Assembly (NCBI RefSeq): GCF_000372745.1
Contig: NZ_KB889727.1
Span: 543-33,270 of the forward strand
Direction: 5' to 3'
DNA: 32,728 bases
From: Embleya scabrispora DSM 41855
GTDB taxonomy: Bacteria > Actinomycetota > Actinomycetes > Streptomycetales > Streptomycetaceae
Shown piece after piece: positions 1 to 32,728 of the stretch. Below the pieces are notes generated by a model. It did not search any database. It saw nothing but the letters and a program-made list of their open reading frames with translations, and was not told the origin of the DNA. Position numbers and translations under genes: made by a program. How positions within the stretch are numbered: the first letter of the stretch is position 1; every line of letters starts with the position of its first letter.

Positions 1-125
1 CGGGGTCGGTTGATGCAGGCCCTGCCCGCGGGTGGGGCGATGGTCGCCGTCCGGGCGGCCGAGGCCGAGGTTGTGGAGTTGTTGCGGGGCCGGGAGAGTG
101 AGGCGGGGATCGCCGCGGTCAACGG
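1..125 (+). repeat. Left copy of exact 125-bp terminal inverted repeat
   Basis: Bases 1-125 match the reverse complement of 32604-32728 exactly; the first difference is at base 126 (A here, T in the other copy). Both copies encode the same AT stretch around [14 protein letters not shown]. High but imperfect similarity continues to about base 660, through HAFH to the LPTYPFQH motif that ends the AT. Confidence 0.95.
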
Positions 126-4605: not shown

Positions 4606-7600
4606 CTACTTGCCGTCCAGGAACTGGAAGAGCTCCTCGTCCGTCGCGGCGGTGACGTCGAGCCGCTCCTCGGACCGGGCGGCGGAGTCCCGGAACGCAC
4701 GCAGCTTCACCAGCAGGCCCTCGATGCGATCGGCGATCCGATCCCCGTCCGGGCCGGTGACCGAGGACATGGTCAACGCCGAGTCCACCCGGTCCAGCTC
4801 GCTCAACACCGAACCCGTCGGTGTCGAGGTACGGGCCGCGAGCAGACGAATCAACTCGCGAGTCACGGCGGCCGCCGTCGGGTGGTCGAACACCAGCGTC
4901 TGCGCGAGCCTGAGGCCGGTCTCGGCGCCGAGCCGGTTCCGGAACTCCACGGCGGACACCGAGTCGACCCCCAGGTCGGAGAACGCACGGTCGGGATCGA
5001 TCGACCGCCCCGGCGCGTACTGCAGCACGTCGGCCATCCGGGTGCACACCAGGTCGAGCAGGATCTCGTACCGGTCGTCCTCCGGCAGACCGGCCAGCCG
5101 GGCGGGCAGGGCACCGGAGTCGGCGGGCGCCGGCCGCAGCGACCGCGGCGCGCGCGGCGTCACCCCCCGGCCCGCGAGGCGTCGCAGGATCGCCGGCACC
5201 TCCGCCTGGGCGCGCACCATGGTCAGGTCCAGTGCGACCGGAACCAGCAGCGCCTCGTCCAGACCGAGTGCGGCGTCCAGCAGCGCGACGCCCTGTTCCG
5301 ACGAGGACAGGGTCACCCCGAGTCGGGCCAGGCGGGCCAGGTCCACGTCGGTCAGGTCCTCGGTCATCGTGCTGCGCTCGGCCCACATGCCCCACGCCAG
5401 CGACACCCCGGACAACCCCCGGGCCCGCCGATACTGCGCGAGCGCGTCCAGGTAGGCGTTGCCCGCCGCGTAGTTCGCCTGGCCCGCCGGGCCGATCAGG
5501 CCGGACATCGAGGAGAACAGCACGAACGCCGACAGGTCCAGGTCGCGGGTCAGCTCGTGCAGGTTCCACGCGGCGACCATCTTGGGGCTCAGCACCACGT
5601 CGAGCCGCGGCGGGGTCAACTCGGTCAGCACCCCGTCGTCGAGCGCCCCGGCCGCGTGCACGACCGCGGTCAGCGGGGTCTCGGCCGGGATGTCGGCGAG
5701 CAACCGGGCCAGCGCGGCGCGATCGGCCGTGTCGCACGCGGCCAGCACGACCTCGACACCCGATTCGGTCAGCTCGGCCGCCAGTTCCACGCCCCGCGGG
5801 GACGCGGCGCCCGTACGGCTGACCAGCAACAATCGCCGCACGCCGTGTGCGCTCACCAGGTGCCGGGCGACAACCCCGCCGAGCGTGCCGGTCCCGCCGG
5901 TGACGAGCACCGTGCCGGTGCCGAACGCCGCCGCCGGCGCGACGCCGGCGCCGACCTCGGCCCGGACCAGCCCGGGCACCAGGGCCCGGCCGGATCGCAC
6001 CGCCAACTGCGGCTCCCGCGCGACCAGCGCCGCCAGCGTGTCCCACGGCACCGCCTGCGCGTCCACGTCCACCAGCCCGAACCGGCCCGGGTTCTCGGTC
6101 TGCGCCGACCGCACGAGGCCCCACACCCCGGCCTGGGCCAGCCCGTCGACCGGCTCCTTCGGCTCGGTGCCGACCGCGCCCTCGGTCACCAGCACGAGCG
6201 TCCCGGAGGCGAACCGCTCGTCGGCGAGCCACTCCTGCGCGACGGTGAGCACCGCGCCGGTGACCTCCCGGGCGTCCGGGCCGGCCGGGCAGCGCAGGAA
6301 CACCACGCCCGGGTCGGCGGGGACCTCCGCGAGGCTTTCCACGAGCGTCCACGGGGCGGGTTCCGCCGGCTCGGCGGGCACGGCCGACCAGTCCACCCGA
6401 AACATCGACTCCGCGGGCGTGCCCGGTCCGCCCGTCGGCATCCGCCGAAACCGCAGACCGTCGACCGAGGCCACCGGTGCGCCGGTCGCGGCACTGAGCC
6501 GGATCGACACCACATCCGTGCCGGAGGCCGACATCCGCACCCGCAGCGCGGACGCCCCGACCGCCGACAAGGACACGCCGGACCAGGCGAACGGCAGGAC
6601 CGCGCCGTCCATACCGTCGAGGAAGGACCCGAACCAGACCGCGTGCAGCGCCGCGTCCAGCAGCGCCGGGTGCAGGCCGTATCGATCCGCCTCGGCCGCC
6701 GCCTCCGGCGGCAGCGCGACCTCGGCGAACACCTCGTCCCCGCGCCGCCACAACGCCGACAACCCCCGAAACGCCGGCCCGTAGTCGTACCCGCGCGCGG
6801 CGAGGTCGGCGTACACGTCGCCGATCGCGACCTCCTGCGCGCCCTCCGGCGGCCATACGCCGGCCTCGAACCCGGCCGGCGGGGCCCAGCCGGCCAACGA
6901 ACCGTCGGCGTGCCGGACCCAGTCGCCCTCCTCCGGGCGCGCGTGCACCGACACCGCCCGGTGTCCCGACTCGTCGGCCTCCTCGACCACGACCTGGATC
7001 AGCGTCCCGCCCCGCTCCCCCAGCACCAACGGCGTGTGCACGGTCAGCTCGTCGAGCAGGTCGCAGCCGACCTCCCGGCCGGCACGCAGCACCATCTCGA
7101 CGAACGCGGCGCCCGGTACGACCACCCGACCCAGCACCGCGTGGTCGGCCAGCCACGGCTGGGTCTGCGGGGACAGCCGGCCGGTCAACACCGTCCCGCC
7201 GGACTCCGGCAGCGCCAGCACCGCACCGAGCAGCGGGTGCTCCCCGGCGACCAGGCCCGCGGCCCGCAGGTCGCCCGCCTGCGCCGGGACTTCCATCCAG
7301 TAACGGTCGCGGCGGAAGGCGTAGGTGGGCAGCCGCACGGTGCTCGCGCCCGTCCCGGCGAACACCCGGTGCCACTCCACCTCGATGCCGTACACGTGCG
7401 CCGCGGCCAGCGCGGTCAGCGCGGCGACCGGCTCCGGGCGGTCGGCCCGCAGGACCGGCACCGCGACCGATACCGAGTCCCGTTCCGGGAAACAGCCTTC
7501 GGCCATCGCGGCCACCGAGGCGTCCGGACCGACACCGACGAACCGGGTCACCCCGTCGTCCAGGAGACGATGCACCGCGCCGGCGAACCGCACCGGCTCG

Positions 7601-10011
7601 CGGACCTGGCGCACCCAGTACTCCGGCGAGCACACCGACTCCGCCGTCAGCGGCTCGCCGGTGACCGTCGACACGATCGGCAACACCGGCTCGTGGAACG
7701 CCACGGCGGCGAGCACCTCGCGGTAGGGCTCCAGCATCGGGTCCATCAGCGGCGAGTGGAACGCGTGGCTCACCCGCAATCGCTTCGTGCGTCGGCCCAG
7801 GGACGCGAAGTGCTCGGCGACCCGCAGCACCGCGCCCTCCTCGCCGGACACGACCACCGACTCCGGCCCGTTCACGGCGGCGATGCCGACCTCGTCACCC
7901 GCCGCCACCGAGGCGACCTCGTCCTCGCCGGCCCGGATCGACACCATCGCGCCGCCTTCGGGCAGCCGCTCCATCAGCCGACCACGCGCCGCCACCACCC
8001 GGCACGCGTCATCGAGCGTCCACAATCCCGCGACGAACGCCGCCGACAGTTCCCCGATCGAATGCCCGGCCAGCACCTCCGGCCGCACGCCCCACGACCC
8101 GAGCAGTCGGGTCAGGGCGACCTCGATCGCGAACAGCGCGGGCTGCGCCCACCCGGTCCGGTCCAGCAGTTCCGCTTCCGGTTCCGTCTCCGCGACCAGT
8201 ACCTCGCGCAGCGGTCGGTCCAGCAGGCCGTCGAACCCGGCGCACACCTCGTCCAGCGCCGCCGCGAACTCCGGGAACACCGCGTACAGTTCCCGGCCCA
8301 TACCGATCCGCTGGGTGCCCTGCCCGGCGAACACGAACGCGGTGCGGCCGGGGTGCGCGACGCCCCGCACCACGCCGGATGCCGTACCGCCGGCGGCGAT
8401 CGCCCGCAGACCGGCGAGCAGTTCGTCCCGGTCCCCCGCCATCACCGCGGCCCGCTGCTCGAAGGCCGTCCGGGTGGTCGCCAGCGAGAACGCGACGTCG
8501 AGCGGGTCCGACGAGTCCACGGTGGACAGCAACAATCCCGCCTGGTCGGCCAACGCCTCGGGGGTCATGGCGGAGAGCACCACCGGCACGAGCGGCAGCG
8601 GGACGCCTTCCCGCGGCTCGGCCGGCGCGGTCGCCGGTGCCTGTTCCAGGATCACGTGCGCGTTGGTGCCGCTGATCCCGAACGAGGACACCGCGGCCCG
8701 CCGCGGCGCGCCCGTCACCGGCCACTCCCGCCGCTCGGTCAGCAGCCGCACCTCGCCCGCGGACCAGTCCACATGCGACGAGGGCGCGTCCACGTGCAGG
8801 GTCTTGGGCAGCACACCGTGTCGCAACGCGAGCACCATCTTGATCACCCCGCCGACCCCGGCGGCGGCCTGGGTGTGCCCGATGTTGGACTTCAACGACC
8901 CGAGCCACAGGGGACGGTCGCGGTCCGGGCCGTAGGTGTCCAGGACGGCCTGCGCCTCGATGGGGTCGCCGAGCCCGGTGCCGGTGCCGTGCGCCTCGAC
9001 CGCGTCCACGTCCGAGCCGGCCAGGTCGGCGTCGTCGAGCGCCTGGCGGATCACCCGCTGTTGGGACGGGCCGTTCGGCGCGGTCAGCCCGTTCGAGGCG
9101 CCGTCCTGGTTGACCGCGCTGCCGCGCACCACGGCCAGCACCGGATGCCCCAGCCGTACGGCGTCCGAGAGCCGCTCGACCAGGAGCATGCCGACACCCT
9201 CGGCCCAGCCGGTGCCGTCGGCGGCGTCGGCGAAGGACTTGCAGCGCCCGTCCGGGGCCAGCCCCCGTTGGCGGCTGAACGCGACGAGCATGCCCGGGGT
9301 GGACATCACCGTGGCGCCGCCGGCCAGCGCCAGCGTGCACTCCCCCCGGCGCAGCGACTGGACCGCCAGGTGCAGCGCGACCAGCGACGACGAGCATGCC
9401 GTGTCGACGGTGACCGCGGGGCCCTCGAACCCGAAGGTGTACGCGATCCGCCCGGAGGCGGCGCTGTTCGCGGTGCCGGTCAGCAGGTGCGCCTCCGCAC
9501 CGGCGGCGGCTTGGTGCAGCCGGGGGCCGTAGTCCGGTGCCATGGCTCCCGCGAACACCCCGACCCGGGCGCCGCGCAGCGAGGCGGGGCGGACCCGGGC
9601 CTGCTCCAGCGCCTCCCACGAGGTTTCCAGGAGCAGTCGCTGCTGCGGATCCATCGCGATCGCCTCGCGCGGCGAGATCCCGAAGAACTCCGGGTCGAAC
9701 TCCGTTGCCCCGCGCAGGAAACCGCCGTGCCGGGTGTAGGTGCGGCCGGGTGCGTCGGGGTCCGGGTCGTACAACGACTGCGCGTCCCAGCCCCGGTCGA
9801 CGGGGAATTCGCCGATCGCGTCACCACCGGCGTCCAACAGTCGCCACAGGTCCTCCGGCGAGCCGACGTCGCCGGGAAACCGGCACGCCATGCCGATGAC
9901 GGCGATCGGTTCCCGACTCGCCTGCTCGCTCTCCCGCAGCCGCTGCCTGGTCTGCTGCAACTCGGCCGTGACCCGCTTGAGGTACTCGACCAGCTTCTCT
10001 TCGTTACTCAC
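4606..10011 (-). CDS. One-module type I PKS: dock-KS-AT-DH-KR-ACP-dock
   Basis: The 1801-residue protein is one complete extension module. It opens with a coiled-coil docking helix (about residues 1-34), then KS (Cys206 in DTACSSS), AT (GHSIG with Ser651, HAFH 749-752, so malonyl-type), DH ([10 protein letters not shown] with His957; DAALH later), KR ([11 protein letters not shown], Tyr1514; LDD present, so B-type) and ACP (Ser1684), with a helical C-terminal docking tail from about 1730. All catalytic residues I can check are present, so it should add an acetate unit and leave an alkene. The start is GTG at 10009-10011 with GGAG five bases upstream. It follows the loading PKS after 11 bases and is the last gene of that operon. 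Its N-terminal helix fits the acidic C-terminal helix of the loading PKS, making it the likely second extension module. The recipient of its own C-terminal tail is not in the window. Confidence 0.96.
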
Positions 10012-10022: not shown

Positions 10023-18332
<8,310 letters not shown>

Positions 18333-18570: not shown

Positions 18571-19773
18571 TCAGTACAGGAGGGTCACCGACGGGTGGAT
18601 ATCCAGCGTCGCGCGGCTGTAGTCCTCGAGGATGATCGGCGCGTTCAGCGCGGTGTGCCGACTCATCACCGAGATATCCCGCCACAGGCGCTGGAGCGGA
18701 TTCGACAGGGCGAAGGCGCTGCCTCCGACGACGTCGAGCAGCTTCTCCACACCCGCCCGCGCCTTTTCGTGGGCGGACCTCTGGTGCATGCGAATCCGGG
18801 CTCGCTCCGCCCACGGCATGGGCTGGGTTTCCGGTATCCCGTCGAGAGCCGCACCGATCTCCCGCAGGTGCAGGGCGGAGGTCTCGATCAGATGCGCGGC
18901 CTCGCCGAACCACATCTGCACCGAGGGCGCGTCGACGGCCGCCTCGTAGTTGACGTAGGTGATCGGGCGCTTCTTGTCCAGGGTCTGCCTGGTGACCTCC
19001 AGCGCGCCCTGCGCCGCACCCACGATCGCGGCGAGCGACTGCGCGCTGCCCTGGATGAGCATGCTGTCCCGCTCGTCCTCGCCCACGAGGTCGGAGAGGC
19101 TGAACGCGACCGCCCGCTGCTCCGGGACGAACACGTCCTCGGCCACCACCGTGTGGGTGCCGGAGCCGGCCAGACCGGCCACGTGCCAGGTCCGCTCGAT
19201 CCTCAGGTCGCCCATCGGTACGACGGCGCCCACCAGGTCGGTGGTCTGCTCGTCGCCGTCGTACACGTGCACCACCGGGATGTAGGCCCAGTCCGCGATC
19301 TCGCAGCCCGAGCTCCACGGGAACGTGCCGGTCACCCGGAATCCGCCGTCGACCCGCCGAGCCTTGGTCGTGCTCAGGTGGGCCGTGGAGATCACGTACG
19401 CGTCGGGATTGTCCGCGAACATCTCCGCCAACGCGGTCTCCGGCATGCCGTTCAAGGCGAACCGGGTCGACGCGGTGTCGATGGACAGGTTCCAGCCGGC
19501 CGACCCACACGACTTGCCGACCTCGGCGATGATCGCCAGCAGATCCGACATCCGCAGGTCGTAGCCGCCGAACCGGGTCGGCGTGGTGAGCCGGAACAGC
19601 CCCGCGTCGCGCAGCCCGACCACGACCTCCTCGGCGAGCCTGCGGTCCTGCTCGGTCTTGGGCGCGTTCTCGCGGATCAGCTGAGCAAGCTCGCGGGTAC
19701 GGGTCAGAAGCTCCGCCGGGTCGACCGCCGGCTCGGTCGTCGCGTCCGCCCGCTCATCGGCCACTGCTGTCAC
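18571..19773 (-). CDS. Acyl-CoA-dehydrogenase-fold flavin monooxygenase
   Basis: The 400-residue protein has the acyl-CoA dehydrogenase fold: an N-terminal helical part with LRDAGLFRLTTPTRFGGYDL, a middle beta part with GTFPWSSGCEIADW, and a C-terminal helical part with DVVGGSAFALSNPLQRLWRD. This pattern fits two-component group D flavin monooxygenases (HsaA, HpaB, KijD3 class) better than true acyl-CoA dehydrogenases, because the usual catalytic Glu context is not evident. It would use reduced flavin and oxygen to hydroxylate, epoxidise or N-oxygenate the polyketide or its amine; the substrate cannot be read from sequence. I chose GTG at 19771-19773 because GAAGGAG lies six bases upstream; an in-frame GTG at 19825-19827 would add 18 residues that do not look like protein and lacks such a site. 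No flavin reductase partner is in the window. A desaturase role, as for dehydrogenase-like enzymes in alkaloid clusters, is the main alternative. Confidence 0.85.
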   Translation of the reverse strand: MTAVADERADATTEPAVDPAELLTRTRELAQLIRENAPKTEQDRRLAEEVVVGLRDAGLFRLTTPTRFGGYDLRMSDLLAIIAEVGKSCGSAGWNLSIDTASTRFALNGMPETALAEMFADNPDAYVISTAHLSTTKARRVDGGFRVTGTFPWSSGCEIADWAYIPVVHVYDGDEQTTDLVGAVVPMGDLRIERTWHVAGLAGSGTHTVVAEDVFVPEQRAVAFSLSDLVGEDERDSMLIQGSAQSLAAIVGAAQGALEVTRQTLDKKRPITYVNYEAAVDAPSVQMWFGEAAHLIETSALHLREIGAALDGIPETQPMPWAERARIRMHQRSAHEKARAGVEKLLDVVGGSAFALSNPLQRLWRDISVMSRHTALNAPIILEDYSRATLDIHPSVTLLY

Positions 19774-19779
19774 GAAGCT

Positions 19780-19786
19780 CTCCTTC
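19780..19786 (-). promoter_or_regulatory. Ribosome binding site deciding the monooxygenase start
   Basis: GAAGGAG is six bases upstream of GTG 19771-19773. This decides against the longer in-frame GTG at 19825-19827. Confidence 0.8.
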
Positions 19787-19805
19787 GATTGTGGGTCGCG
19801 GACCG

Positions 19806-19819
19806 ACCCCGATCGGGGT
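19806..19819. promoter_or_regulatory. 14-bp perfect palindrome upstream of the monooxygenase
   Basis: ACCCCGATCGGGGT is a perfect dyad 33-46 bases upstream of the chosen start codon. It could be an operator or a small hairpin in the leader. It does not match the larger palindrome before the exporter. A lone TTGACT lies a little further upstream (minus strand, about 19846-19851) without a matching -10. Confidence 0.4.
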
Positions 19820-19952
19820 GGGCTCACCGCACCGCATCCGTGCTCAAGTCAATCCGCTCCGGCCGAGCAGTCCCAGCGTCGAGAACCCAGAAACCGGCCG
19901 CAGGGCTGGTCCTCGGAACCAAGTGGCAGCCTTGGAACCGGGCACCTGCCGA

Positions 19953-19985: not shown

Positions 19986-21497
19986 TCAGACGCCGGGCGC
20001 GACGGCCGCTTCACCGACCTCCGGCTCGGCCTGCGCCGTCACGAAGCGGTCGAACAGCAGGCCACAGACGATCGCCCCGCCGAGGAAGACCATCGCGCCC
20101 CAGAAGAACGCCGTCGTGTAGCTCTCCACGGAGGCTTCCGCGGCGAGCTGCGGGGTCGGCGTCTTGCCCTCGATGTAGGAGTCCGCCGCGGTGATCGCCA
20201 GCGTGCTCAGCAGCGCGGTACCGATCGAACCGCCCACCTGCTGCACCGTGTTGACCAGTGCCGACGCGGCGCCGGCGTCCTGCGGTTCGACTCCCACCGT
20301 GGCGACTGCGGCGCCCAGCGAGACGACCAGTCCGAAGCCGATGCCGGCGATGAGGGTCGGGGCGAGCACCCCGGCGGCGTACGAACTGTCGGTGGTGAGG
20401 CGGCTGAGCCAGAACGAGCCCACCGCGGCCAGCAGCAGGCCGGCCGGAATCAGTACGCGCGACCCGAGCTTCGGTTCGAGGATCGGCGGGACGGTGGTCG
20501 CCCCGATCGCGATCCCCACGATCATCGGCAGGAAGGCCAGGCCGCTTTCGATCGCCGAGAAGTCCAAGATCAACTGGAGGTAGTAGGTCAGGAACAGGAA
20601 CTGCACGAACAGCCCGATCCCGAGCAGGAACATCGCCAGGTACGCGCTGCCCCGATTGCGGTGCAGCACGATCCTGATCGGCAGCAGCGGGGTCCGCGAG
20701 CGAAGCTCGAACACCACGAACGCGACCAGCAGGACCCCGCTCCCGACCAGGAAGCCCCACACGTCGATGCCGCCCCAGTGACCGTCGGAGGCGTTGGAAA
20801 GACCATAGGCAAGGCAGAACAGGCCGACCGAGGCCGTCACCGTGCCGGGCAGGTCGAGCTTCTCCGGGCGATCTTGGGCCTGCCGGTTCTGCATCGTCAG
20901 CGACGCGCCGATGAAGACGACCGCCGTGAGGATCACGTTGACGTACAGGCACCAACGCCAGTCCAGCCAGTCGGTCAGAGCGCCGCCGAGGATCAGGCCG
21001 AGCGCGAGCCCGCCGCTGCCCAGCGCGCCGTAGACGCCGAACGCGGTGACCCGCTCCTTCGGGTCCTTGAACACCGTCAGCAGGAACGACAGCGCCGCCG
21101 GCGCGACGAGCGCGGCGAAGGCTCCCTGCAGCGCACGAGCGGTGACCAGCATGGGGAAGCCGTTGGCCGCGCCGCCCAGCACGGACATGACACCGAATCC
21201 GATGATCGAGATCATCAGCGACCGCTTGGCCCCGATGAGGTCGACCACCCTGCCGCCGAGCAGCAGTAAGCTGCCGAAAGCGAGCGCGTAGGCCGTGACG
21301 ACCCACTGCCGGTCCGCGTCGCCGAACCCGAGATCCGCCTGTGCCGACGGCAGCGCGATGTTGACGACCGTCGTATCCAGGAAGATCGTCATCTGCGCGA
21401 TACCGATCACCGCCAGGATCAACCAGCGGTTGGCGTAGTGGGGGTCGGGCGCCCCCTCCACCGCCACTTTCGACTCGGAATTTGGTGACTCTGACAT
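19986..21497 (-). CDS. MFS drug:H+ antiporter-type exporter (DHA2-like)
   Basis: The 503-residue membrane protein belongs to the major facilitator superfamily, 14-helix DHA2 (EmrB/QacA-like) branch. The first helix has FLDTTVVNIALPSAQ; the loop after helix 2 carries GGRVVDLIGAKR (motif A); GALGSGGLALGLILGG matches the antiporter motif C region. About 14 hydrophobic segments are visible and the length is normal for DHA2. It probably exports the cluster product and gives self-resistance. The ATG at 21495-21497 has GAGG eight bases upstream; the frame stays open much further upstream, but that part overlaps the aminotransferase gene in another frame and does not look like protein. Codon 77 is TTA (21267-21269), so in Streptomyces translation would depend on the bldA tRNA. 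A 22-bp palindrome sits just upstream, in the 67-bp gap after the aminotransferase gene. Confidence 0.95.
   Translation of the reverse strand: MSESPNSESKVAVEGAPDPHYANRWLILAVIGIAQMTIFLDTTVVNIALPSAQADLGFGDADRQWVVTAYALAFGSLLLLGGRVVDLIGAKRSLMISIIGFGVMSVLGGAANGFPMLVTARALQGAFAALVAPAALSFLLTVFKDPKERVTAFGVYGALGSGGLALGLILGGALTDWLDWRWCLYVNVILTAVVFIGASLTMQNRQAQDRPEKLDLPGTVTASVGLFCLAYGLSNASDGHWGGIDVWGFLVGSGVLLVAFVVFELRSRTPLLPIRIVLHRNRGSAYLAMFLLGIGLFVQFLFLTYYLQLILDFSAIESGLAFLPMIVGIAIGATTVPPILEPKLGSRVLIPAGLLLAAVGSFWLSRLTTDSSYAAGVLAPTLIAGIGFGLVVSLGAAVATVGVEPQDAGAASALVNTVQQVGGSIGTALLSTLAITAADSYIEGKTPTPQLAAEASVESYTTAFFWGAMVFLGGAIVCGLLFDRFVTAQAEPEVGEAAVAPGV
21267..21269 (-). other. In-frame TTA leucine codon (possible bldA control)
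   Basis: Codon 77 of the exporter, within a run of four leucines, is TTA. The other three leucines use CTG or CTC. In Streptomyces, TTA codons are rare and read by the developmentally controlled bldA tRNA. It is the only in-frame TTA I noticed, though I did not scan every PKS codon exhaustively. Confidence 0.85.
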
Positions 21498-21521
21498 TCC
21501 ACTTACCTCTGTTGATCGGGC

Positions 21522-21543
21522 CGGACCATCGGCCGATGGTCCG
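21522..21543. promoter_or_regulatory. 22-bp perfect palindrome, candidate operator before the exporter
   Basis: An uninterrupted 22-bp dyad with half-site CGGACCATCGG is centred in the 67-bp gap between the aminotransferase stop and the exporter ATG, ending 24 bases before that ATG. Its size and symmetry suit a dimeric repressor such as a TetR-family protein. No regulator gene is in the window. A translational or transcriptional hairpin is the alternative, but there is no T tract. Confidence 0.55.
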
Positions 21544-21564
21544 ACGAACGGGGTTCGGCAGATT

Positions 21565-24414
21565 TCAGCTGTAGACAGTCTCGAATCCGTGCTGCTTCGC
21601 GAGTTCGACCATGGCGTCCACCCGCTCGCGGGTAATCGCACCGTCGCCCATCGATCCGCCACCGGACAACGCGAGTGTGATTGCTTCCGCCGCCCCCGCC
21701 GGCAATTCGTCAGCACCCGGTGAAACGCTGAGGCCAGGTGGCAGAATACCGCCACCGGACACGGAAAGTACACCGGCCCGCACATAGCGTAGATCGTCGC
21801 GAGAATTTGCCGCGGCGGATTCCGCACCGGTGCCGAAGAAGGACAAATCGCCGATGATCGCGCCGTCGGCGAGATACTTTTCGTCCAGTACCGAAACCGG
21901 GCTCGAATGCGCCGTGAACACCACCTGCGCATTTCGCACCGACAACAGATCGTCGGCCACGACGACGAACGGGTCGGCGTCATGGGCGTCGGCGAGATAC
22001 GCGGCGATGGCCTCGCCACTGGGCTCGTCGCCGGGACGCCCGTCGGCCAGCCATCCGGCGATGAGCGGCTCGGCGGAAAGCGCCGCCGCGATACCGGTCG
22101 GCTCACCGCCCGCCGCGATCTGCGCCCACGACTCCTGGTAGATCCGATGTTCCGTGGCCCGGAGCCGCTCGGCCGAACCCGGCCGGCCGCTGCCCACCAG
22201 CACGATCCTGGCCACCTCCCGCGCGCCGATCGCCGCGATGGCCGAGCCGACCCGCCCGCCGGCGCCGACGACCGCCATCGTCGATCCGCCGAGTCCGCCG
22301 AAGCGTTCGACCGCGGCATGGCGAACGGCGGCCAGGGCCGAGCCGACCGCCAGCGCGCTGCCCGCGGTCACCGCGATCCCGGGAACTCGCAACACGCGGC
22401 CGTGACCGCTCACCGCGCCGAGGCCGAACCCGAGGCCGACGGTGTCGCAGCCGTCCGCCTTCGCCGCGCGCACCCGGCGGTCCAGGTCCAGGCCGATCAG
22501 GAAGGTCTGCCCGGAGACCTGGTACTCGCGCAACTGCTGCTGGGTCACCAGCAACGGGTAGACGGTGAGGTCCACCGACGTACCCTGCGGCGAGTCGAAC
22601 CGGACCGGCGCGAGCGCCGGCAGGTCCTTGAGCAGCTCGGACCGCCGGGCATAGGCGAGCAGCCGGGCGTCGTCCAGGTCGGCGAGCGAGGGGTCGAGCT
22701 CGCGCAACATGTCCGGGGTCAGCGGGTGGCTGACGAGTCCGACCTTGCGGTCGGCCGGCTCCGTCGGCGCGACCGCGTCGCCCGCCGCGGGCCGGAAGTC
22801 CCGGATCTGTGCGCGCGCCGGCCGACCGGCGCCGGTCAGCGGGTGGATCAACGCCGACGCGTCCTGGTTGCGCAGGATCCGACAGACCTGGGTGAGGCCG
22901 ACGCGCAGTTGCTCGATCTCCTCGTCGCTGATGTAAATCGACGGCTCGATCCGCAACATGGTCGGCACACTGGCCGTCGGGCCGGTGCGGATGCGGTGCG
23001 CCAACTGCAGGTAGCTGCCCAGTTGGAAGACGAGCAGACCGGCCCGTGCCTTCTCCCGGATGATCGGGGACGATGCCTGGCTCTGGTCGGCGAAATCCAG
23101 TCCGATGAGCAGTCCCCGGCCGCGGACGTCGGCCACCACGTCGGGGAACTCCGCGGCCAGCTCGCGCAGCATGGCCAGGATGCGCTCACCGCGTTCCGCG
23201 GCGCGGTCGTAGGCCGCTCCGTCCTCGGCTTCGAGCAGTTCGAGGGTCCGCAGGGCGATGGCCGTGGAAAAGCCGTCCTTGGCGAAGGTCGAGCTGTGCA
23301 CCAGCTCGAACTCCGGGCGGTAGCAGGACTGTCGGACCAGCATCGCGGAGGTCTTGCCGACACCACCGCCGAGCGACTTGCCCAGCACGTAGTAGTCGCC
23401 GAGCAGCCCGATGTGGGAGCTCGCGAAGAACTTCCCGGTCCGCCCCATCCCGGTTTGGATCTCGTCGACGACGATCGGGCATTCGATCTCGTCGCAGATC
23501 CGCCGGATCCGCGCGGCGAACTCGGCGGTCAGCTCGTGGATCCCGCCCTCGCCCTGGATCGGCTCGACGATCAGCCCGGCGACGACCGGGAAGTCCCGCT
23601 CGACGAGCGTGACCCTGCCGTCCACCACCTGGATGTCGAGCACGGTGACCCGCTGCTCGGAGACGATCTTCTCGAACGCCGTCGCATCGTCGGGCGGCAC
23701 GAACCGCACCGTCGGCCCGAGCGACGCGAACGCCGCCCGGAACAGCGGGTTGTAGGTGAACTGGGTGCTGCCGACCAGCTTTCCGTGGAAGGCCCGCTCC
23801 AGCGCGAAGAACACCGGGACGGTCCCCGCCCGCGCGACGTTGTGCGCGGCCACCGCGCCGAGCAGTGCCGCGAACTCCTCGACGGTCGTCGGCACCGGCA
23901 CATCGCCGGGCAGCAGCGAGGTGTCGTCCGGCAGCGCCGCGGCGCCGTCGCGCACCGCGTTCACCGCCACGTCGGCGTTCCACTCGATCTGCTCGAACAG
24001 GCTCTTCATCCGCAGCACGCGAGCGAACTCGCAATGCTTGACCGCCGCCTCGACCGCCTCCGCGCCGGTGTTGGCGAAGATGATCGGGTACGGCTCGGCG
24101 CCGGGGAACTCGCGGCCGAGTATCTCGTTGAGCACCGCGCCGACCCGGTCGGCGACGGGATGCGAGGAGTGCTGCGAGTGCACCGGCCAACCGGTGTCCA
24201 GCAGTTCCTTCGCGTACGCCACGATCTCCGGATGGTTGTGCCCGAGCATCAGCGAGCCCCAACCGCCGACCAGGTCGAGTACCGGCACCTCCGTACCGGC
24301 GTCGTCCAGGTAGTACAGGCTGTTCTTCTGTGCCCGGACATACTCGATGTCCAGTCCGAAGGTGCCGAGCATTCCGGTCAGTAGGGCTTCGGCGTAACGG
24401 ATGGGTGCGTTCAC
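21565..24414 (-). CDS. Class III aminotransferase fused to a Rossmann-fold reductase
   Basis: This 949-residue protein has two parts. Residues 1 to about 520 form a class III PLP aminotransferase: GGWGSLMLGHNHPEI near the N-terminus, ANTGAEAVEAAVK for cofactor phosphate, DEIQTGMGRTG, and the PLP lysine K346 in LGKSLGGG. Residues from about 560 form a second domain with a Rossmann dinucleotide motif, VVGAGGRVGSA (about 713-723), preceded by LGFGLGAVSGHGRV; it resembles the acyl-ACP/thioester reductase part of fused enzymes such as PigE and TamH, a weaker assignment. The enzyme probably converts the polyketide aldehyde to an amine; the reductase could make an aldehyde from a thioester or reduce a later imine. 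The GTG at 24412-24414 has AGGAG six bases upstream, better than the TTG just before it. It starts 13 bases after the PKS stop at 24428, so the two are co-transcribed. Confidence 0.9.
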   Translation of the reverse strand: MNAPIRYAEALLTGMLGTFGLDIEYVRAQKNSLYYLDDAGTEVPVLDLVGGWGSLMLGHNHPEIVAYAKELLDTGWPVHSQHSSHPVADRVGAVLNEILGREFPGAEPYPIIFANTGAEAVEAAVKHCEFARVLRMKSLFEQIEWNADVAVNAVRDGAAALPDDTSLLPGDVPVPTTVEEFAALLGAVAAHNVARAGTVPVFFALERAFHGKLVGSTQFTYNPLFRAAFASLGPTVRFVPPDDATAFEKIVSEQRVTVLDIQVVDGRVTLVERDFPVVAGLIVEPIQGEGGIHELTAEFAARIRRICDEIECPIVVDEIQTGMGRTGKFFASSHIGLLGDYYVLGKSLGGGVGKTSAMLVRQSCYRPEFELVHSSTFAKDGFSTAIALRTLELLEAEDGAAYDRAAERGERILAMLRELAAEFPDVVADVRGRGLLIGLDFADQSQASSPIIREKARAGLLVFQLGSYLQLAHRIRTGPTASVPTMLRIEPSIYISDEEIEQLRVGLTQVCRILRNQDASALIHPLTGAGRPARAQIRDFRPAAGDAVAPTEPADRKVGLVSHPLTPDMLRELDPSLADLDDARLLAYARRSELLKDLPALAPVRFDSPQGTSVDLTVYPLLVTQQQLREYQVSGQTFLIGLDLDRRVRAAKADGCDTVGLGFGLGAVSGHGRVLRVPGIAVTAGSALAVGSALAAVRHAAVERFGGLGGSTMAVVGAGGRVGSAIAAIGAREVARIVLVGSGRPGSAERLRATEHRIYQESWAQIAAGGEPTGIAAALSAEPLIAGWLADGRPGDEPSGEAIAAYLADAHDADPFVVVADDLLSVRNAQVVFTAHSSPVSVLDEKYLADGAIIGDLSFFGTGAESAAANSRDDLRYVRAGVLSVSGGGILPPGLSVSPGADELPAGAAEAITLALSGGGSMGDGAITRERVDAMVELAKQHGFETVYS

Positions 24415-24420
24415 CAATGT

Positions 24421-24427: not shown

Positions 24428-27400
24428 TCAGCGGTTGGGGTTGGCGGAGGAGCGGCCCAGCTCCCGGTCGATGAAGTCGAAGACCTCGTTCTCGGTCGCG
24501 GTCTCGATCGCGGCGGCCAGGTCGAACTCGGCGGTACCGGCGACCGCTTCGGGCCGCGCGTCGGGCCGGGTCTTGTTCCAGCGGGCGAGGATGGCGGTCA
24601 GCCGGGCGGTGATCTCCGGGTGACCGAGAGCCTGGTCGGCCGCCTGGTCGACCGGAACGGCCATCAGGACGGCCTCCAACTTGTCCAGTTCGGCCAGTGC
24701 GGAGCGAGGGCTGACCCCGTCGGTGACGGCGAGCCGTTCGAGCAGGTGTTCCACCAGTACGCCGGGTGAGGCGTAGTCGAACACCAGCGTGGTGGGCAGG
24801 GACAGGCCGGTCTGCTCGGCCAGCCGGTTGCGGAACTGCACGGCGGACAGCGAGTCGAATCCGGAGTCCCGGAAGGACACCTCCCACTGCACGTTCTCCG
24901 GGGTCGCGTGCCCCAGCACCCCGGCCGCCTCGGCGCGCACCAGGTCGCGCAGGTACCGCTCGGCCTCGGTCCTGGTCATCCGGGCGAACCGGTCGGCCGG
25001 CACGTCGACGCTCGCCTTCCGGCGCTCACCGCGCGGCACCAGAGCGCGCAGCACGACCGGCACCTGCGCGGTGTCGCGGCGCAGCGCGGCCAGGTCGAGC
25101 GGTGCCGGCGCGACCACGGCATGCCCCGAGGCGAGTGCGGCGTCGAACAGTTCGCACGCCTCGTCCTCGGCGATCACCCGCAGACCGGACTGTGCGCTCT
25201 CGACCATCCGGCCCCAGGCCATCGACACCGCGGGCAGTCCCCGGGCGCGGCGCCACGTGGCCAGCGCGTCCAGGTAGGCGTTCGCCGAGGCGAAGTTGGC
25301 CTGCCCCGGGCTGCCGAGCATGCCGACCACCGAGGAGAACAGCACGAACAGCGCGGGCGGCGCGTCCGCGGTCAGCTCGTGCAGGTGCCACGCCCCGTCC
25401 ACCTTGGGCCGCAGCACATGCGCGACGCGCTCTGCGGTCAGCGCGGTGAACACCCCGTCGTCCAGGACGTTTTGGGTGTGCACGATCCCGGTCAACGGGT
25501 GCTCGGGCGAGATGTCCGCGAGCAGCGCGCGCAACGACGCCCGGTCGGCCGGATCGCAGGCCGCCACGGTGACCGCGGCACCGAGACCGGCCAGTTCGTC
25601 CCGCAGCCGCGCGGCCGGCGAGTGGGGCCCGTGCGGGTCGGACGCGGCGAGCACGAGGTGCTCGACCCCGTACGCGGTGACCAGGTGCCGGGCGAACAAC
25701 GCCCCGAGCGGCCCGTCGGCGCCGGTGACCAGCACGGTACCGGCCGCCACGGGCGCCGCCGGCGGCCCGCCCGGCGCGGCCGACGGTACGAGCCTCGGCG
25801 CGAGCATGCGCCCGGCCCGGATGGCCAGTTGGGGCTCCCCCGCCTGGGCCGCCAGGAACAGCAGCTCGGTCGAGGCCGCGTCGTCGTCCAGGTCGACCAG
25901 CACGATCCGATCGGGGTTCTCCGCCTGGGCCGACCGCAACAGGCCCCACACCGCGGCCCCGGCCGGGTCCCGGACGTCGTCCCGCGCCTCGACGGCCATC
26001 GCGCCCCTGGTCACCACGACCAGGCGGTTGTCCGGCAGGTTCTCCTGGGCCAGCCAGGACTGCGCCACGCCGAGGGCCCGTTCCACGGCCCGGTGCACCT
26101 GCGCCGGCCGCCCGGCGGACATGTCCGGCTCCGACGGTTGCACCAGCAGGACGTCCCAGGGGGTGTAGGACGCCGCCGCCGACTCGACGTCGGTGAACCG
26201 CAGCGGCGCCACCTCGGCGAGGTCGCCGGGGTCGTCGCCGAGCAGGGCGAGCAGGCTCTCCGGCTCGTCGTCGGCCGGCAACGGGACCGCAGTCCAGCGA
26301 AGTTCGAACAGCGAAGCCCGGCCGGGCGCCGCGGACGCCGCACCGTCCCTCGGGGTCAGCCGCACCGGGGCCAGGCGCACCGACTCGGCCACCAGCACCG
26401 GCAGCCCGGCCTCGTCGACCGCTTCGAGGCAAAACGCCTGCGGTCCCACGGGAGCCAGGCGCACGCGCAGGACCGTCGCCTCGGTGGCGTGCAGGGCAAC
26501 GCCCTCCCAGGCCAGCGGCAATACGGCCGTGCCGTCCGGCTCGACCTCGGGAGCGCCGATCAGCAGCGATTGCACGGCCGCCTCCAGCAGGGCCGGGTGG
26601 ATCCCGAACCCGCCGACGTCGGCGATCGCCCCTTCGGGCAGCCTGACCTCGGCGAACAACTCGTCCCCTCGGCGCAGCACCGACTCCAGGCCGCGGAACA
26701 CCGGGCCGTACCGGTGTCCCGCGTCGGCGAGGTCCTCGTACGCCCAGTCCACCACCGCGGCTCCGGCCGGTGGCCACGCGGCCGGCTCGATCCGCGGTGG
26801 GCCGGCGGCGGGGGCGAGCAGGCCGGTGGCGTGGCAGGTCCAGTCCCGCGGCGCACCATCGGCGCCCGGGCCGGCGGCGGGTCGGGTGTGGATGCCCACC
26901 GCGCGCCGTCCCGACTCGTCGGCGGCGCCGGTCACCACCTGCACCTGCACGCCGCCGCGGTCGGGCAGTACGAGCGGCTCGACGATGGTGAGCTCGGCCA
27001 GTACCGGGCAACCGGTCGCGTCGCCGGCCCGGATCGCCAGGTCCACCAGGGCCGACCCGGGCAACACCGGCACACCGGCGACCACATGGTCCGCCGACCA
27101 GGGATGGGTGGTGAGCGACAGGCGGCTGGTGAACACCGACTCGTCCCGGCCCGCCACCGCGACGGCCGCGCCGAGCAGGGCGTGCTCGGTGGCATCGAGG
27201 CCGAGGTTCGCGGCGTCGCCGGACTCGGCCGGCCAGTACCTCGCGCGCTGGAACGGGTAGGTGGGCAGGCCGGTGCGGCGGGCCCCGGTGCCGGCGAACA
27301 CGGCCGTCCAGTCGACGGCCGCCCCGGCGACGAACAGCTCCGCCACGCCGTCGAGCACGGTGTGCACCTGCGGCCGATCGTCCCGGAGCAGGAGCACCGA

Positions 27401-30400
27401 ACGTTCGAGCGTGCGCCCGGGACCCGACTCGACGAACCGGGTCACCCGTTGCTCATCCATCCACCGCTCGGCGGCGGTGATGCCCGCCGACCCCGCCGAC
27501 CCCACGAGATCGCCGGCCGCGAGCGGCCGGCCGGTGCGCAGCGACACCACCGGGATCCGTGGTTCGGCGAACGTCACCTCGATTCGGTCTCCGGTCGTCA
27601 CCAGCCGGGCGGCGTCGGCCGGCGAGAGCGCCCCGGCGACGTACGCGGCGGCGATCTCGCCGATCCCGGTCCCGGCGACGCAGCCGAACGTGAGGCCCCA
27701 GGACTCGATCAGGCGGAACAGCGCCACCTCGGCGGCGAACAGTGTCGCGTCCTCGCCCTTGTCGCCGAGCTCGGCCAGGATCTCGTCGAACGCCTTGGCG
27801 TACACCGGCAACGTCTCGTACAGGTCGCGTTCCGGACCGTCCGCGGGCCGGCCGGTGACGGGCCGACCGGTGAACACGAACGCGGTCCGGCCGTCCCGGG
27901 CGACGGATGCGTCGCCCTCGGCGATCGCCCGCAGCCCGGCCGGTGCCTTCGCCCCGCCCGCGGTGACCAGTACCGCGCGGTAGTCGAATACCGAGCGGGT
28001 CGCCAGCGAGAAGCCGATGTCGAGCGGGTTCGGCGCGGCATCGCAGTCCACCACGGACAGCAGGCGACCGGCCTGCGCGCGCAGCGCCTGCGGCGACTTG
28101 GCCGACAACACCCACGGCACAGCCGGCAGGGACACCGCGTCCCGCGCCGGAATCCGGGTCGCCTCCTCGGGTGCCTGTTCGAGGATGACGTGCGCGTTGG
28201 TGCCGCTCATTCCGAAGGCGGACACCGCGGCCCGGCGCGGCCGGTCCCGTTCCGGCCACGGACGGGCCTCGGTCAGCAGTTCCATCGCGCCCGACGACCA
28301 GTCCACCGCGGATGTCGGCTCGTCCACGTGCAGGGTCTTCGGCAACAGGCCGTCCCGCATGGCCATGACCGCCTTGATCAGCCCGCCGGCCCCGGCCGCG
28401 TGCTGGGTGTGCCCGATGTTCGACTTCACCGACCCCAGCCACAGCGGGCGGTCCGCCGGCCGGTTGTGGCCGTAGGTCGCCAGCAACGCCTGCGCCTCGA
28501 TCGGGTCGCCGAGCCGGGTGCCGGTCCCGTGTGCCTCCAGCAGGTCCACCTCGGACGGTTCGACGCCGGCGTTGGCCAACGCCTGCCGGATCACCCGCTG
28601 TTGCGAGGGGCCGTTGGGCGCGGTCATGCCGTTGGACGCGCCGTCGGAATTCACCGCGCTGCCCCGGACGAGCGCGAGCACCGGGTGCCCGTTTCGCCGG
28701 GCGTCGGACAGCCGCTCCAGCACGAACAGGCCCAACCCCTCCGACCAGCCGGTGCCGTCCGCGGACTCGGCGAACGCCTTGGCCCTGCCGTCCGGCGACA
28801 ACGTGCGCTGCCGGGAGAACTCGATGAACCCGATGGGCTGCGCCATCACCGTCGCGCCGCCCGCGAGCGCCAGGGCACACTCGCCGCTGCGCACCGCGTT
28901 CGCGGCCAGGTGCAGCGACACCAGCACCGAGGAGCACGCCGTGTCGATGGACATCGTCGGGCCTTCCAGCCCCAGGACGTAGGAGATCCGGCCGGAGCCG
29001 AAGGACGTCGTGGAGCCGGTCAGCCGGTATCCCTCGGCACTCTCCTCGACCCCGTCGCCGCCCTCCCCGTATCCCTGCGCGGTCAACCCGGTGAAGACGC
29101 CCGTGTTGCTGCCGCGCAACGACTGCGGGTCGATTCCGCCGCTTTCCAGCGCCTCCCACGAGGTCTCCAGGAGCAACCGCTGCTGCGGGTCCATCGCGAG
29201 CGCCTCGCGGGGCGAGATCCCGAAGAAGCCGGCGTCGAACTCGGCGGCGGCGTCGATGAATCCGCCGGCACGCGGATAGAACGTGCCGGGTTTGTCGGGA
29301 TCCGGGTCCCAGAGCCGCTCGATGTCCCAGCCGCGGTCGTCCGGCATGTCCGCCATCGCGTCCACCCCGTCCACGACCAGCCGCCACAGTTCCTCGGGGG
29401 TGTTCGCCCCGCCCGGGAAGCGGCACGCCATCCCGACGATCGCGACGGGCTCGTTCTCGCCGCCGGGCCCCGGGACCGACGCGGCCACGGCCGTTGCCGA
29501 AGCCGGCAGGTCGCCGCTCAGCTCGGACAGCAGATGCTCGGCGATCGCCGAGACCGTCGGGTAGTCGAACACCACCCCGGGCGACAACCGCAGGCCGGTG
29601 ACCGCGGCCAGTCGGTTGCGCAACTCGACGGCGGTCAGCGAATCGAAGCCCAGCTCGCGGAACGGCACTCCCTCGCCGATCCGCTCGCCCGTGCCGAACC
29701 CGAGGACCGCGGCCACCTCGGTCCGCACCAGGTCGGCGACCTGCTCGTGCCGCTGGTGAGGCGGCAACGCGGCCAACCGGCCCGCCAGTTCCCGCTGGTC
29801 GCCCGCGCCCTGCCGAACCACCCGACGAGACGGCCGACCGACCAGGCTCCGCAACATCGGCGGGATCGGAGCCGATCCGGCCCGCAACGTCGGCAGGTCG
29901 AACCGCGCCGGCAGGATCACCGGGCGGTTCGACGCGAGCGCCAGGTCGAACAGCGCCGCGCCGCCCTGCGCGGAGATGGGCCGCAGACCCGGGTGCCGCG
30001 GTTGGTCGAGCCCGCCCGCGGTGACCCCGGCCTGCATGCCGCCCTCCGTGGACCACAGACCCCAGCCCAGTGAGAGCGCGGGAAGGCCGTGGGCGCGGCG
30101 GTAGCCGGCGAGCGCGTCGAGGAAGTGGTTGGCCGCACAGTAGTTGGCCTGGCCCGGGTTGCCCAGCGTGCCGGCGAGTGAGGAGAACAGCACGAACATC
30201 GCGAGGTCCATGTCGCGGGTGAGTTCGTGCAGGTGCCAGGCGGCGTCGACCTTGGGGCGCAGTACGGAGGCGACCCGGTCGGGGGTGAGCGCGGTGATGA
30301 TGCCGTCGTCGATGACGCCGGCGGTGTGCACGATGCCGGTGAGCGGGTGCTCCGCCGGGATCGCGTCGAGCAACGCCGCGAGATCGGCGCGGTCGGCCAC

Positions 30401-32728
30401 GTCGCAGGCCGCCACCCGTACGGTGGCACCGAGCGCGGTGAGTTCCGCGACCAGTTCGCCCGCCCCGGGCGCTTCCGGGCCTCGCCGGCTGACGAGTACC
30501 AGGTTCCGGGCGCCGTACCCGGTGACCAGGTGCCGGGCGAACAGCGCGCCCAGCGCGCCGGTTCCGCCGGTGACCAGGACCGTGCCCTCCGGTGCCGGCT
30601 TCGGCCCGGCGGTGTCCGCCGCGGGCTGCGGAGCCAGGCGTGGCACGGTCACCGCGCCGGCGCGCACCGCGACCTGCTCGTGGCCCGCCGCCAGTACCGC
30701 GGGGAGGATGGCGAGCGAGGCCGGGTCGTCGTCGACGTCCGCCAGCACGATCCGGTCGGGGTGTTCCGACTGTGCGGAACGCAACAGGCCCCACACCGCG
30801 GCGCCCACCAGGTCCGGGCCGATGCCGTCCGGCCCGACCGCCACCGCGCCACGGGTCACCACAACGAGGCGACTTGCCGCGAACCGCTCGTCAACCAGCC
30901 ATTCGCGCACCAGATCCAGCGCCTCGACGACCGTGTCGTGCACCGGTGCGACGACCTCGCCACCTGGCCGGCCGGTGTATGCGGCGAGCAGCACGTCGGC
31001 CCCGGCCGCGTCCGACAGCGACTCGCGGTGGTCGACCGTCAACGCCGCATCGACCGACCGGTCGGGGCCGCCGAGCAGCACCCAGCGCCCCTCCTGTGCG
31101 GCCGGGACCGCTTCGGCCCCCACCCAGTCCACCCCGAACAGCGAACCGACCGCCTTATCCCGCGCGACCGGCCCGTCGGCCGACACCGGGCGTCCCTCCA
31201 CCGACAGCACCTCGGCGACCGGTTGCCCCGCCTCGTCGGCCATCTGCACCCGGCAGGACGCCCCGCCGTCGGTCTCGCCGTCGATGACCACCCGTACCCG
31301 CAGCGCGGTCGCGCCGGTGGCGTAGAGGCTGATCCCGTTCCACACGAACGGCAGCAGGAGCGTGAAGTCCTCGCCCGCATCGGCGATCGCGGCGAAGACC
31401 CGAGGGTGGATGGCCGCGTCGAACAGCGCGGGATGAATCCCGAATCGTGCCGTGTCCGTGTGTTCCGGCAGCGCGACCTCGGCGAAGAACTCGGCGCCGG
31501 CGGCTCCGTCGCGGCGCCACAGCGTCCGCAGCCCGCGAAACGTCGGGCCGTAGACGTAGCCGCTCTCCGCGAGCTGCTCGTAGAACCCGTCCGTGGCCAC
31601 GGGCGAGGCGCCGGCCGGCGGCCATTCGCTCAGCTCGAAATCCGGCTCCGGGGCCGAGGGAGTCAACAGACCGGTGGCGTGGCAGGTCCACTCCCGATCG
31701 CTCTCGTCGCAGGAGTGGATCGCGAACGTGCGGTGGCCGGAGTCCTGCACCTCGTGGACCACGAGCTGGACTTGTACCCCGCCTGCCTCCGGAAGGAGCA
31801 GCGGCGCGATGACCACCATCTCGGCCACACCGGCGCAACCGACCTCGTCGCCGGCCCGGATCGCCATGTCGATCAACGCCGTGCCCGGCACCAACGCCCG
31901 TCCGCCCAGCGTGTGTTCGGCGACCCAGGCGTGCGTGCGCGCCGACAGGCGGCCGGTGAACACGACCTCGTCGGCGCCGGCGACGCGCACCACCGCGTCC
32001 AGCATCGGGTGGCCCAGGGCCTCTTGCCCCGCCGAGACGGCGCCGGCCGACGACGACTGCGCAAGCCAGTAGTTCCGGTGTTGGAAGGGGTAGGTGGGCA
32101 GGTCGATCAGGGTCGCGGTGGTACCGGTGAACAGCTTGGACCAGTCGACGGTGTGTCCGCCGGTGTGCAGGTGCGCCGGCGCGGTCACCGCAGTGCGGAC
32201 CTGGGGCCGGTCATGGCGCTGCAACGCCACGAACGACGCGTCCGGCACACTGTCCGGGCCCATCGCGGTCAACACACCGTCCGGCCCGATCTCCACGAAC
32301 CTGGTCACCCCCGCCGCCCGCAACCGGGTGAGGTGATCGGCGAACCGCACCGGCTCCCGAACGTGCTCCACCCAGTACCGGGCGGAGCACACGTCCTCGG
32401 TACTCGCGGCCATCGGGATGTCCGGCTCGGCGAACACCACACCGTTCACGACGACGGCGAACTCATCGAGGACGGGGTCCATCAGCGGAGAGTGGAAGGC
32501 GTGACTGACCGTCAGCCGCCGCGTCTTGCGTCCCCGCTCGCGCAACGTGTCGGCTACAGCGGTGACAACGCCCTCGACCCCGGAGATCACCACCGACGAC
32601 GAACCGTTGACCGCGGCGATCCCCGCCTCACTCTCCCGGCCCCGCAACAACTCCACAACCTCGGCCTCGGCCGCCCGGACGGCGACCATCGCCCCACCCG
32701 CGGGCAGGGCCTGCATCAACCGACCCCG
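24428..32728 (-). CDS. Type I PKS, 3' part: AT(partial)-DH-KR-ACP / KS-AT0-DH-KR0-ACP-dock
   Basis: The frame is open through the right edge; 2766 residues are visible. The first, incomplete module has a malonyl-type AT (HAFH), DH ([15 protein letters not shown]), KR ([14 protein letters not shown], Tyr 30140-30142) and ACP (Ser 29639-29641), all apparently functional. The second module has an intact-looking KS (from about 29452; Cys 28934-28936; EAHGTGT and KSNIGH present) and ACP (Ser 24851-24853), but its middle is eroded. The AT has GTGIG for GHSIG and lacks the HAFH region; the DH has LLEAAVQ, with Glu for the catalytic Asp (26582-26584); the KR has QANF for QANY (Phe 25292-25294) and TGADGPLG for the NADPH loop. 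A helical C-terminal docking tail ending in [12 protein letters not shown] hands the chain to another PKS, possibly the TD protein on the plus strand. The module is either skipped, loaded in trans, or a ketone-leaving module. Confidence 0.95.
25120..26280 (-). other. Inactive ketoreductase domain (KR0)
   Basis: The catalytic Tyr is Phe (QANFASAN, codon 25292-25294). The dinucleotide loop is TGADGPLG rather than TGGTGxLG, and the SRRGP stretch that usually follows is replaced by ASDPHGP. The LDD and FSS motifs are kept. Loss of Tyr normally abolishes KR reduction, so this module should leave a beta-ketone if it extends the chain at all. Domain limits are approximate. Confidence 0.85.
27260..27900 (-). 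other. Eroded, internally deleted acyltransferase domain (AT0)
   Basis: The nucleophile motif GHSxG is GTGIG: His is Thr (27668-27670) and Ser is Gly (27665-27667). The GQG motif near the start reads FTGRP. Between AARLV and PRIPVVS, intact ATs in this window have about 100 residues including HAFH; here only about 12 remain. The frame stays open and flanks such as [13 protein letters not shown] and LPTYPFQ are conserved, so this is an in-frame decayed domain rather than a frameshift. It cannot load its ACP by the normal mechanism. Confidence 0.88.
30180..30333 (-). repeat. KR segment identical over 154 bp to the TD-containing PKS
   Basis: Reverse complement of 2336-2489 without a mismatch. 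It covers the VHTAGVIDD to FSS part of the KR in the first, incomplete module of the right-hand PKS. Confidence 0.93.
32604..32728 (-). repeat. Right copy of exact 125-bp terminal inverted repeat
   Basis: Exact reverse complement of 1-125, encoding the same AT segment. It marks the probable point where an assembler could not choose between repeat copies. Confidence 0.95.

Follow-up and report, generated by a model that had tools for sequence, protein, structure and literature searches.

An acyltransferase (AT) that has lost its catalytic serine has been reported in a polyketide synthase (PKS) module that still extends the chain. In the irumamycin PKS, a cis-AT line with KSQ loading, the AT of module 12 has Gly for Ser and the module is held to extend (PMC11672594), so an AT-dead extending module is not new in itself. 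The available text of that paper ascribes loading to the neighbouring AT11 and mentions no free-standing AT, and the module is the last of its line, with thioesterase release. Here we describe module 5 of a modular PKS line in Embleya scabrispora DSM 41855 (G000; 11.4 Mb in 190 contigs), whose AT (AT5) is dead and whose gene cluster encodes one free-standing AT. We suggest, with a probability of roughly 0.63, that module 5 still functions, as a hybrid module loaded in trans within a line that is otherwise cis-AT. The window is the whole stretch of 32,728 bases analysed (G000:C166:543-33270); it was compared with the genomes of a congener (G001) and of a member of a second genus (G096).

The kirromycin line contains several AT-less modules. 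Like the present line it is described as mixing cis and trans loading, with a discrete AT, KirCII, that serves one particular acyl carrier protein (ACP) with a non-malonyl unit; unlike it, it is a hybrid of PKS and nonribosomal peptide synthetase, whereas here a single module is affected (PMC6164871, PMC5818483). OzmC of oxazolomycin is described as a free-standing AT specific for methoxymalonyl-ACP (PMC6164871), and the oxazolomycin cluster is said to contain the same five-gene set for this extender that we describe below (PMC7489565); that line is listed as trans-AT, whereas ours has its other ATs in cis and keeps a recognisable dead AT and its linkers. The AT-null module 6 of 6-deoxyerythronolide B synthase (DEBS) likewise offers a dead-AT cis module served by a separate AT, although an engineered one (PMC6164871). 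Displacement of integrated ATs to separate genes has been proposed for algal PKSs, there for whole lines using malonyl and by phylogeny (PMC4661987), whereas the present case is one bacterial module with its remnant. The argimycin P, coelimycin and cyclizidine type resembles our line in its terminal reductase, its aminotransferase and a module without a working ketoreductase (KR), in our line probably the penultimate one, and argimycin also in its AQSSS loading; as described, the argimycin ATs all have GHSxG, and neither methoxymalonyl genes nor a free-standing AT figure in these accounts (PMC5300972, PMC11278551). Finally, the bafilomycin PKS shares a matching five-gene set, but uses cis ATs, AT6 and AT12, for methoxymalonate (PMC3679948). 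In the literature searched, mostly outside subscription journals, we found no cis-AT line that pairs a dead AT with a free-standing AT dedicated to it; as far as these sources go, the new part is a conserved, dedicated free-standing AT that shares its cluster with genes for an extender of its own.

AT5 is degenerate in all the ways proposed by an earlier reading of the window, made without database searches (the sequence-only reading). GTGIG replaces GHSxG, and FVFTGRPVT (from 27880) stands at the position of F.F.GQG in intact ATs. The in-frame loss of about 90 residues with HAFH is also real: intact AT4 has about 95 residues including HAFH where AT5 has [13 protein letters not shown] (from 27589; counted on the printed sequences). 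Over the equivalent stretch the remnant has 237 residues and AT4 has 355, a net loss of 118 made up of the gap of about 90 residues and shorter losses to both sides of it. On AT5 the Pfam model Acyl_transf_1 reaches only 39.1 bits and aligns only at positions 65-120 of 319, while the scores of the other five ATs of the contig range from 193 to 345 bits. AT5 most closely resembles the malonyl ATs of PKS A and PKS D and was probably once a malonyl AT itself. An AlphaFold prediction of linker plus remnant from three sequences reached a mean pLDDT of only 40.7 and was not used. A contig scan with the remnant as query returned two further loci at 40-46% identity. On another contig of the same genome (G000 C147:77781-78101), a further PKS module has a decayed AT, with GRSVG for GHSVG, no HAFH region and an intact-looking ACP. 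The same part of the AT seems to have been lost in both modules, and this may perhaps be a recurrent way for ATs to decay.

The remaining domains of module 5 have had different fates. The ketosynthase (KS5) and ACP5 keep their catalytic residues, as the sequence-only reading held (DTACSS, EAHGTGT, KSNIGH and GFDSL). A KS of a non-elongating module (KS0) lacks the condensing histidine. In KS5, HGTGT and NIGH are kept in all three genomes. That reading missed that the dehydratase (DH5) and KR5 are disabled as well. The catalytic Asp of DH5 is changed to Glu ([10 protein letters not shown]), identically in G096, and the congener lacks the whole domain. In each of the three genomes the catalytic Tyr of KR5 is replaced by Phe, and among the KRs read only KR5 is without this tyrosine (Ns conceal that of PKS D in G096); KR4 retains its tyrosine and motifs in all three.

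The lesion is shared with other genomes. A 300-residue query around the remnant matched one of the three other genomes of the genus (G001, 67% identity) and one genome of another genus (G096, 72%). Both read GTGVG at the AT5 site, share the large gap and have a conserved gene neighbourhood. In the family sample, remnants were found in three of 394 genomes, G000 included. In the class sample (1/394) and in the second genus (1/35) only the known carriers, G000 and G096 respectively, were recovered. In the family and class searches, 6 to 8 initial candidates were scored in each genome (six for the remnant and free-standing AT family searches, eight for the search at E 1e-118 below), and absences in them are not strict because so few were scored. 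Among plasmid DNA, none of 51 records covered 80% of the query; the five listed had 29% coverage at 74-75%.

The same three genomes each have one free-standing AT per cluster, which lies outside the window and so was missed by the sequence-only reading, as were the methoxymalonyl-ACP genes. These ATs are 78-83% identical to one another and carry FPGQG, GHSQGE, ARIVALR and VDFAAHS, the motifs of a discrete PKS AT (GQG, GHSxG, Arg and catalytic His) in a separate gene. Their open frames encode 448, 445 and 479 residues (frame starts may differ from gene starts); the KS-AT linker is kept, and no KS or ACP is attached. The gene stands at the far border of the cluster, adjoining a PucR-type regulator and a membrane acyltransferase. 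At E 1e-200 it was found in three of 297 family genomes, exactly the three with a dead AT5.

At the other border of the cluster, all three genomes have one block of five genes of the FK520 type, encoding a 3-hydroxyacyl-CoA dehydrogenase, an O-methyltransferase, a small ACP, an acyl-CoA dehydrogenase and an FkbH-like HAD protein, the last being the only such match in G000. The five together are the set described for methoxymalonyl-ACP (PMC7489565, PMC3679948), and they are 63-68% identical (ACP 53%) to the genes of a bafilomycin-like cluster in another genome (G160).

The nearest relatives of the free-standing AT point the same way. At E 1e-118 the query matched 10 of 249 family genomes, the three and seven others. 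The seven other matches are cis ATs, 59-62% identical, in frames of 3036-5406 residues. Six of them, including AT6 of the bafilomycin-like cluster, lie 38-39 kb from an FkbH-like gene of their own contig; for the seventh no FkbH-like match was obtained at E 1e-20. The six share the stretch W..PGVDFA.HS with the free-standing ATs, reading VDFAGHS where these read VDFAAHS, and the seventh reads VDYASHS. In the bafilomycin-like cluster, with 12 ATs (numbered by gene order), malonyl motifs occur at positions 3 and 7, and the Tyr of YASH gives way to Phe at positions 6 (FAGH) and 12 (FASH) alone; bafilomycin modules 3 and 7 are assigned to malonyl, and 6 and 12 to methoxymalonate (PMC3679948). These motifs and gene associations make methoxymalonyl the likely substrate of the free-standing AT.

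The whole line lies on one contig in G001 and on one contig in G096, where PKS D is broken by Ns; in G000 its pieces are on C143, C166 and C58 and were positioned by similarity. It comprises seven ACP-bearing units, with six ATs that keep Ser and His motifs, that of module 3 in G000 included (in agreement with the earlier view that the other ATs are normal), and one dead AT. Since AT5 lacks the Ser, GQG and His motifs, this is not a cis-AT line in the strict sense of one intact AT per extending module. Neither is it a trans-AT line, with only one of seven loading or extending modules lacking a working AT and six loaded in cis.

We propose that the free-standing AT would take methoxymalonyl from its carrier ACP and load ACP5 in trans, and that KS5 would condense this unit. 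Because KR5 and DH5 are dead, the unit would retain its ketone. The chain would then pass to the terminal module on PKS D, whose reductase would release an aldehyde for amination, and the ketone left by the module preceding D could close a six-membered nitrogen ring. The pathways of argimycin and cyclizidine offer a parallel: the KR in the fourth of five modules is described as probably malfunctioning in the former, and that of module 6 of 7 as non-functional in the latter, each giving a keto group before the last module, and the released aldehyde is aminated (PMC5300972, PMC11278551). The present line, with a terminal reductase, a class-III aminotransferase and the dead KR5, may belong to such reductive-release alkaloid systems; PKS A probably precedes D, given the terminal reductase and the gene order. 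Module 5 most likely extends, because skipping it yields no such ketone and the KR4 motifs are kept in all three genomes, and an extending module 5 therefore needs loading from outside. Besides ACP5 there is no vacant ACP for the free-standing AT, as Ser and His motifs are present in each of the other six ATs.

The sequence-only reading had left three fates open: skipping, loading in trans by a neighbouring or free-standing AT, and use for transfer only. The cluster context favours the free-standing AT; the neighbouring AT and transfer-only use are less likely. Among the alternatives, a module that is skipped or used only for transfer survives best, and we consider it improbable. KS5 would take the chain from ACP4 and pass it to ACP5 and on to D without extension, as might be expected where AT, DH and KR are all dead or absent, and with five extender modules left the line would agree with the five-module argimycin type as described (PMC5300972). 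Against this, KS5 keeps both histidines for decarboxylative condensation in three of three genomes, a weak point with three genomes only; moreover, skipping would leave the free-standing AT without a vacant target and the line without a keto-forming module for ring closure, the KR4 tyrosine being present in all three. Somewhat less probable still is loading of ACP5 by a neighbouring cis AT (AT4 or that of D) or by the malonyl-CoA:ACP transacylase of the cell, with the free-standing AT and methoxymalonyl serving another position. The similarity of AT5 to the malonyl ATs of A and D fits such loading, and the AT-null DEBS module can be complemented by malonyl-CoA:ACP transacylase as well as by discrete ATs (PMC6164871); it would leave the free-standing AT without a vacant acceptor among units whose six ATs keep their motifs, and in the sampled genomes this AT co-occurs with the dead one. 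Recent pseudogenisation or mis-assembly, the latter named by the sequence-only reading as what would overturn it, is very improbable: C166 begins and ends in a repeat that two ATs have in common, where 13 and 14 Ns fall within the outer 1200 bases, and the Ns in PKS D of G096 show that the assemblies are not perfect, but the window has no Ns, its frames are open, KS5, ACP5 and KR5 are conserved, and the lesion recurs in two other assemblies, one from another genus and the other, the congener, without DH5. Mis-assembly was set aside on the equivalent AT5 lesion in those two genomes.

Several observations weigh against loading by the free-standing AT, or against its methoxymalonyl specificity. 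Its gene is not beside the dead module but about 33 kb distant in G001, and the order of A before D rests on inference. In irumamycin, where AT12 carries the Gly, AT11 is proposed to reach T12, and the available text names no free-standing AT (PMC11672594). In the AT tree the free-standing AT does not cluster with the AT6-type group and falls in the methylmalonyl/methoxymalonyl half, beside the YASH AT that is the seventh relative (support 0.83). No significant differences are reported between methoxymalonyl and methylmalonyl ATs (PMC3679948), and elsewhere the motifs are called poorly defined and a YASH AT is reported for methoxymalonyl (PMC7489565); given these findings, one of the three YASH cis ATs of the line could be the methoxymalonyl user. 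The substitution rates are mixed as well. Intact AT4 has dN 0.14-0.21 and omega 0.20-0.32, not far below the remnant, in a comparison that is rough (in this GC-rich DNA the dS values are low and uneven, and ambiguous bases occur in the contig-end repeat to which AT4 of G000 belongs). The dead KR5 (dN 0.09-0.12) is as conserved as KR4 (0.11-0.16). The sequence-only reading took the coherent frame and the docking tail as signs of use: the frame is open and the tail present, but the tail is variable (dN 0.19-0.25, omega 0.70-0.76) and does not speak for strong constraint.

That the module is still used is probably right. Across the three genomes KS5 has dN 0.05-0.10 and omega 0.14-0.27, and ACP5 has dN 0.03-0.09 and omega 0.09-0.29, while the AT5 remnant has dN 0.18-0.27 and omega 0.46-0.52. 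These values indicate relaxed but not absent constraint on the remnant, whose core and linkers perhaps hold the shape of the module. The broken domain probably belongs to a conserved, functional hybrid of cis and trans loading. Since the remnant is most like malonyl ATs, its replacement by an AT from the propionate/methoxymalonate half would have brought in a different extender unit. A fuller history is tentative, and we would put it at somewhat below even odds: the malonyl AT of the module lost its small subdomain and with it its activity, a methoxymalonyl AT was cut out of a cis module and, now free-standing, assumed the task, and the product received another extender unit, all within one otherwise cis-AT alkaloid line. 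This would be a natural snapshot of a module passing from cis-AT to trans-AT. Interconversion of the two kinds of line is debated. A dead AT and a free-standing AT conserved as a pair, and presumably differing in specificity, would offer a case in which an extender switch through displacement of the AT in trans could be tested. The pair would also provide an evolved AT-ACP pair for setting methoxy groups at a chosen position, and a second explanation, beside the neighbouring AT of irumamycin, for AT-dead modules that still extend.

Table 1. Features of module 5, of the remaining window and of the associated genes outside it (window positions unless a genome and contig are given).
Feature	Position	Strand	Remarks
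AT5 remnant	27269..27892 (about)	-	GTGIG at 27659-27673; no GQG; HAFH region missing
KS-AT linker, retained	27899..28318	-	
KS5	28325..29452	-	catalytic Cys and both His kept: DTACSS, EAHGTGT, KSNIGH
DH5	26399..27184	-	high end (2110 of frame) approximate; His motif kept; catalytic Asp to Glu at 26582-26584
KR5	25199..25738	-	catalytic Tyr to Phe at 25292-25294 (GQANFASAN)
ACP5	24743..24943	-	intact GFDSL
C-terminal docking region	24431..24691	-	Erythro-docking match below cut-off; [14 protein letters not shown]
PKS A, 3' part	24428..32728	-	AT4-DH4-KR4-ACP4 / KS5-AT5(dead)-DH5(dead)-KR5(dead)-ACP5-docking tail
Class-III aminotransferase	21568..24417	-	more than 400 extra C-terminal residues without Pfam match
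MFS transporter in open frame	19989..22319	-	match at residues 306-701; frame start is ORF (open reading frame) start, gene start may differ
Acyl-CoA-dehydrogenase-fold oxidoreductase	18574..19827	-	HsaA-like, below the cut-off of that model
PKS B	10026..18332	-	KSQ (AQSSS)-AT-ACP loading module and module 1; both ATs intact (GHSQGE, YASH)
PKS C	4609..10011	-	module 2, intact AT (GHSIGE, HAFH)
PKS D, 3' part	1..4353	+	terminal module, intact AT/DH/KR/ACP and C-terminal reductase (NAD_binding_4)
Free-standing AT	G000 C58:4083-5429; G001 C28:176273-177712; G096 C13:85291-86628		
Five-gene FK520-type set	G001 C28:123814-127954; G096 C13:112217-116307; G000 C143:13415-9326		

The window covers a large part of a modular PKS cluster, encoded on the minus strand, together with the convergent plus-strand PKS D (Table 1). 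The minus-strand frame of PKS A is a single open frame of 2766 residues that continues past the high end of the window. The Ser motifs of AT4 and of the AT of PKS D lie just outside the window, and module 3, with an enoylreductase, sits before PKS A and likewise outside the window. One AT-coding repeat stands at both ends of C166 in inverted orientation, its two copies agreeing at 94-100% identity across the outer 700 bases, and the Ns of this repeat lie just outside the window. In the congener, too, the ATs of PKS A and D form a close pair; together with the likeness of the contig ends, this suggests gene conversion between the two.

The long C-terminal extension of the aminotransferase contains a glycine-rich stretch. 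The protein is possibly a transaminase-reductase fusion like PtTamH, as described in PMC9594044, in which case the cluster would have two reductases, this one and the one in PKS D. In G096, PKS D is found in two places (C13:88027-93768 and 157143-159326), one of them broken by a run of N, and the scaffold order of that assembly is therefore probably wrong there. Finally, a single frame of 536 residues at G001 C28:123795-125402 encodes the O-methyltransferase in its second half only, and its first half overlaps the 3-hydroxyacyl-CoA dehydrogenase gene, read in another frame; mechanical ORF calling is misleading at this locus.

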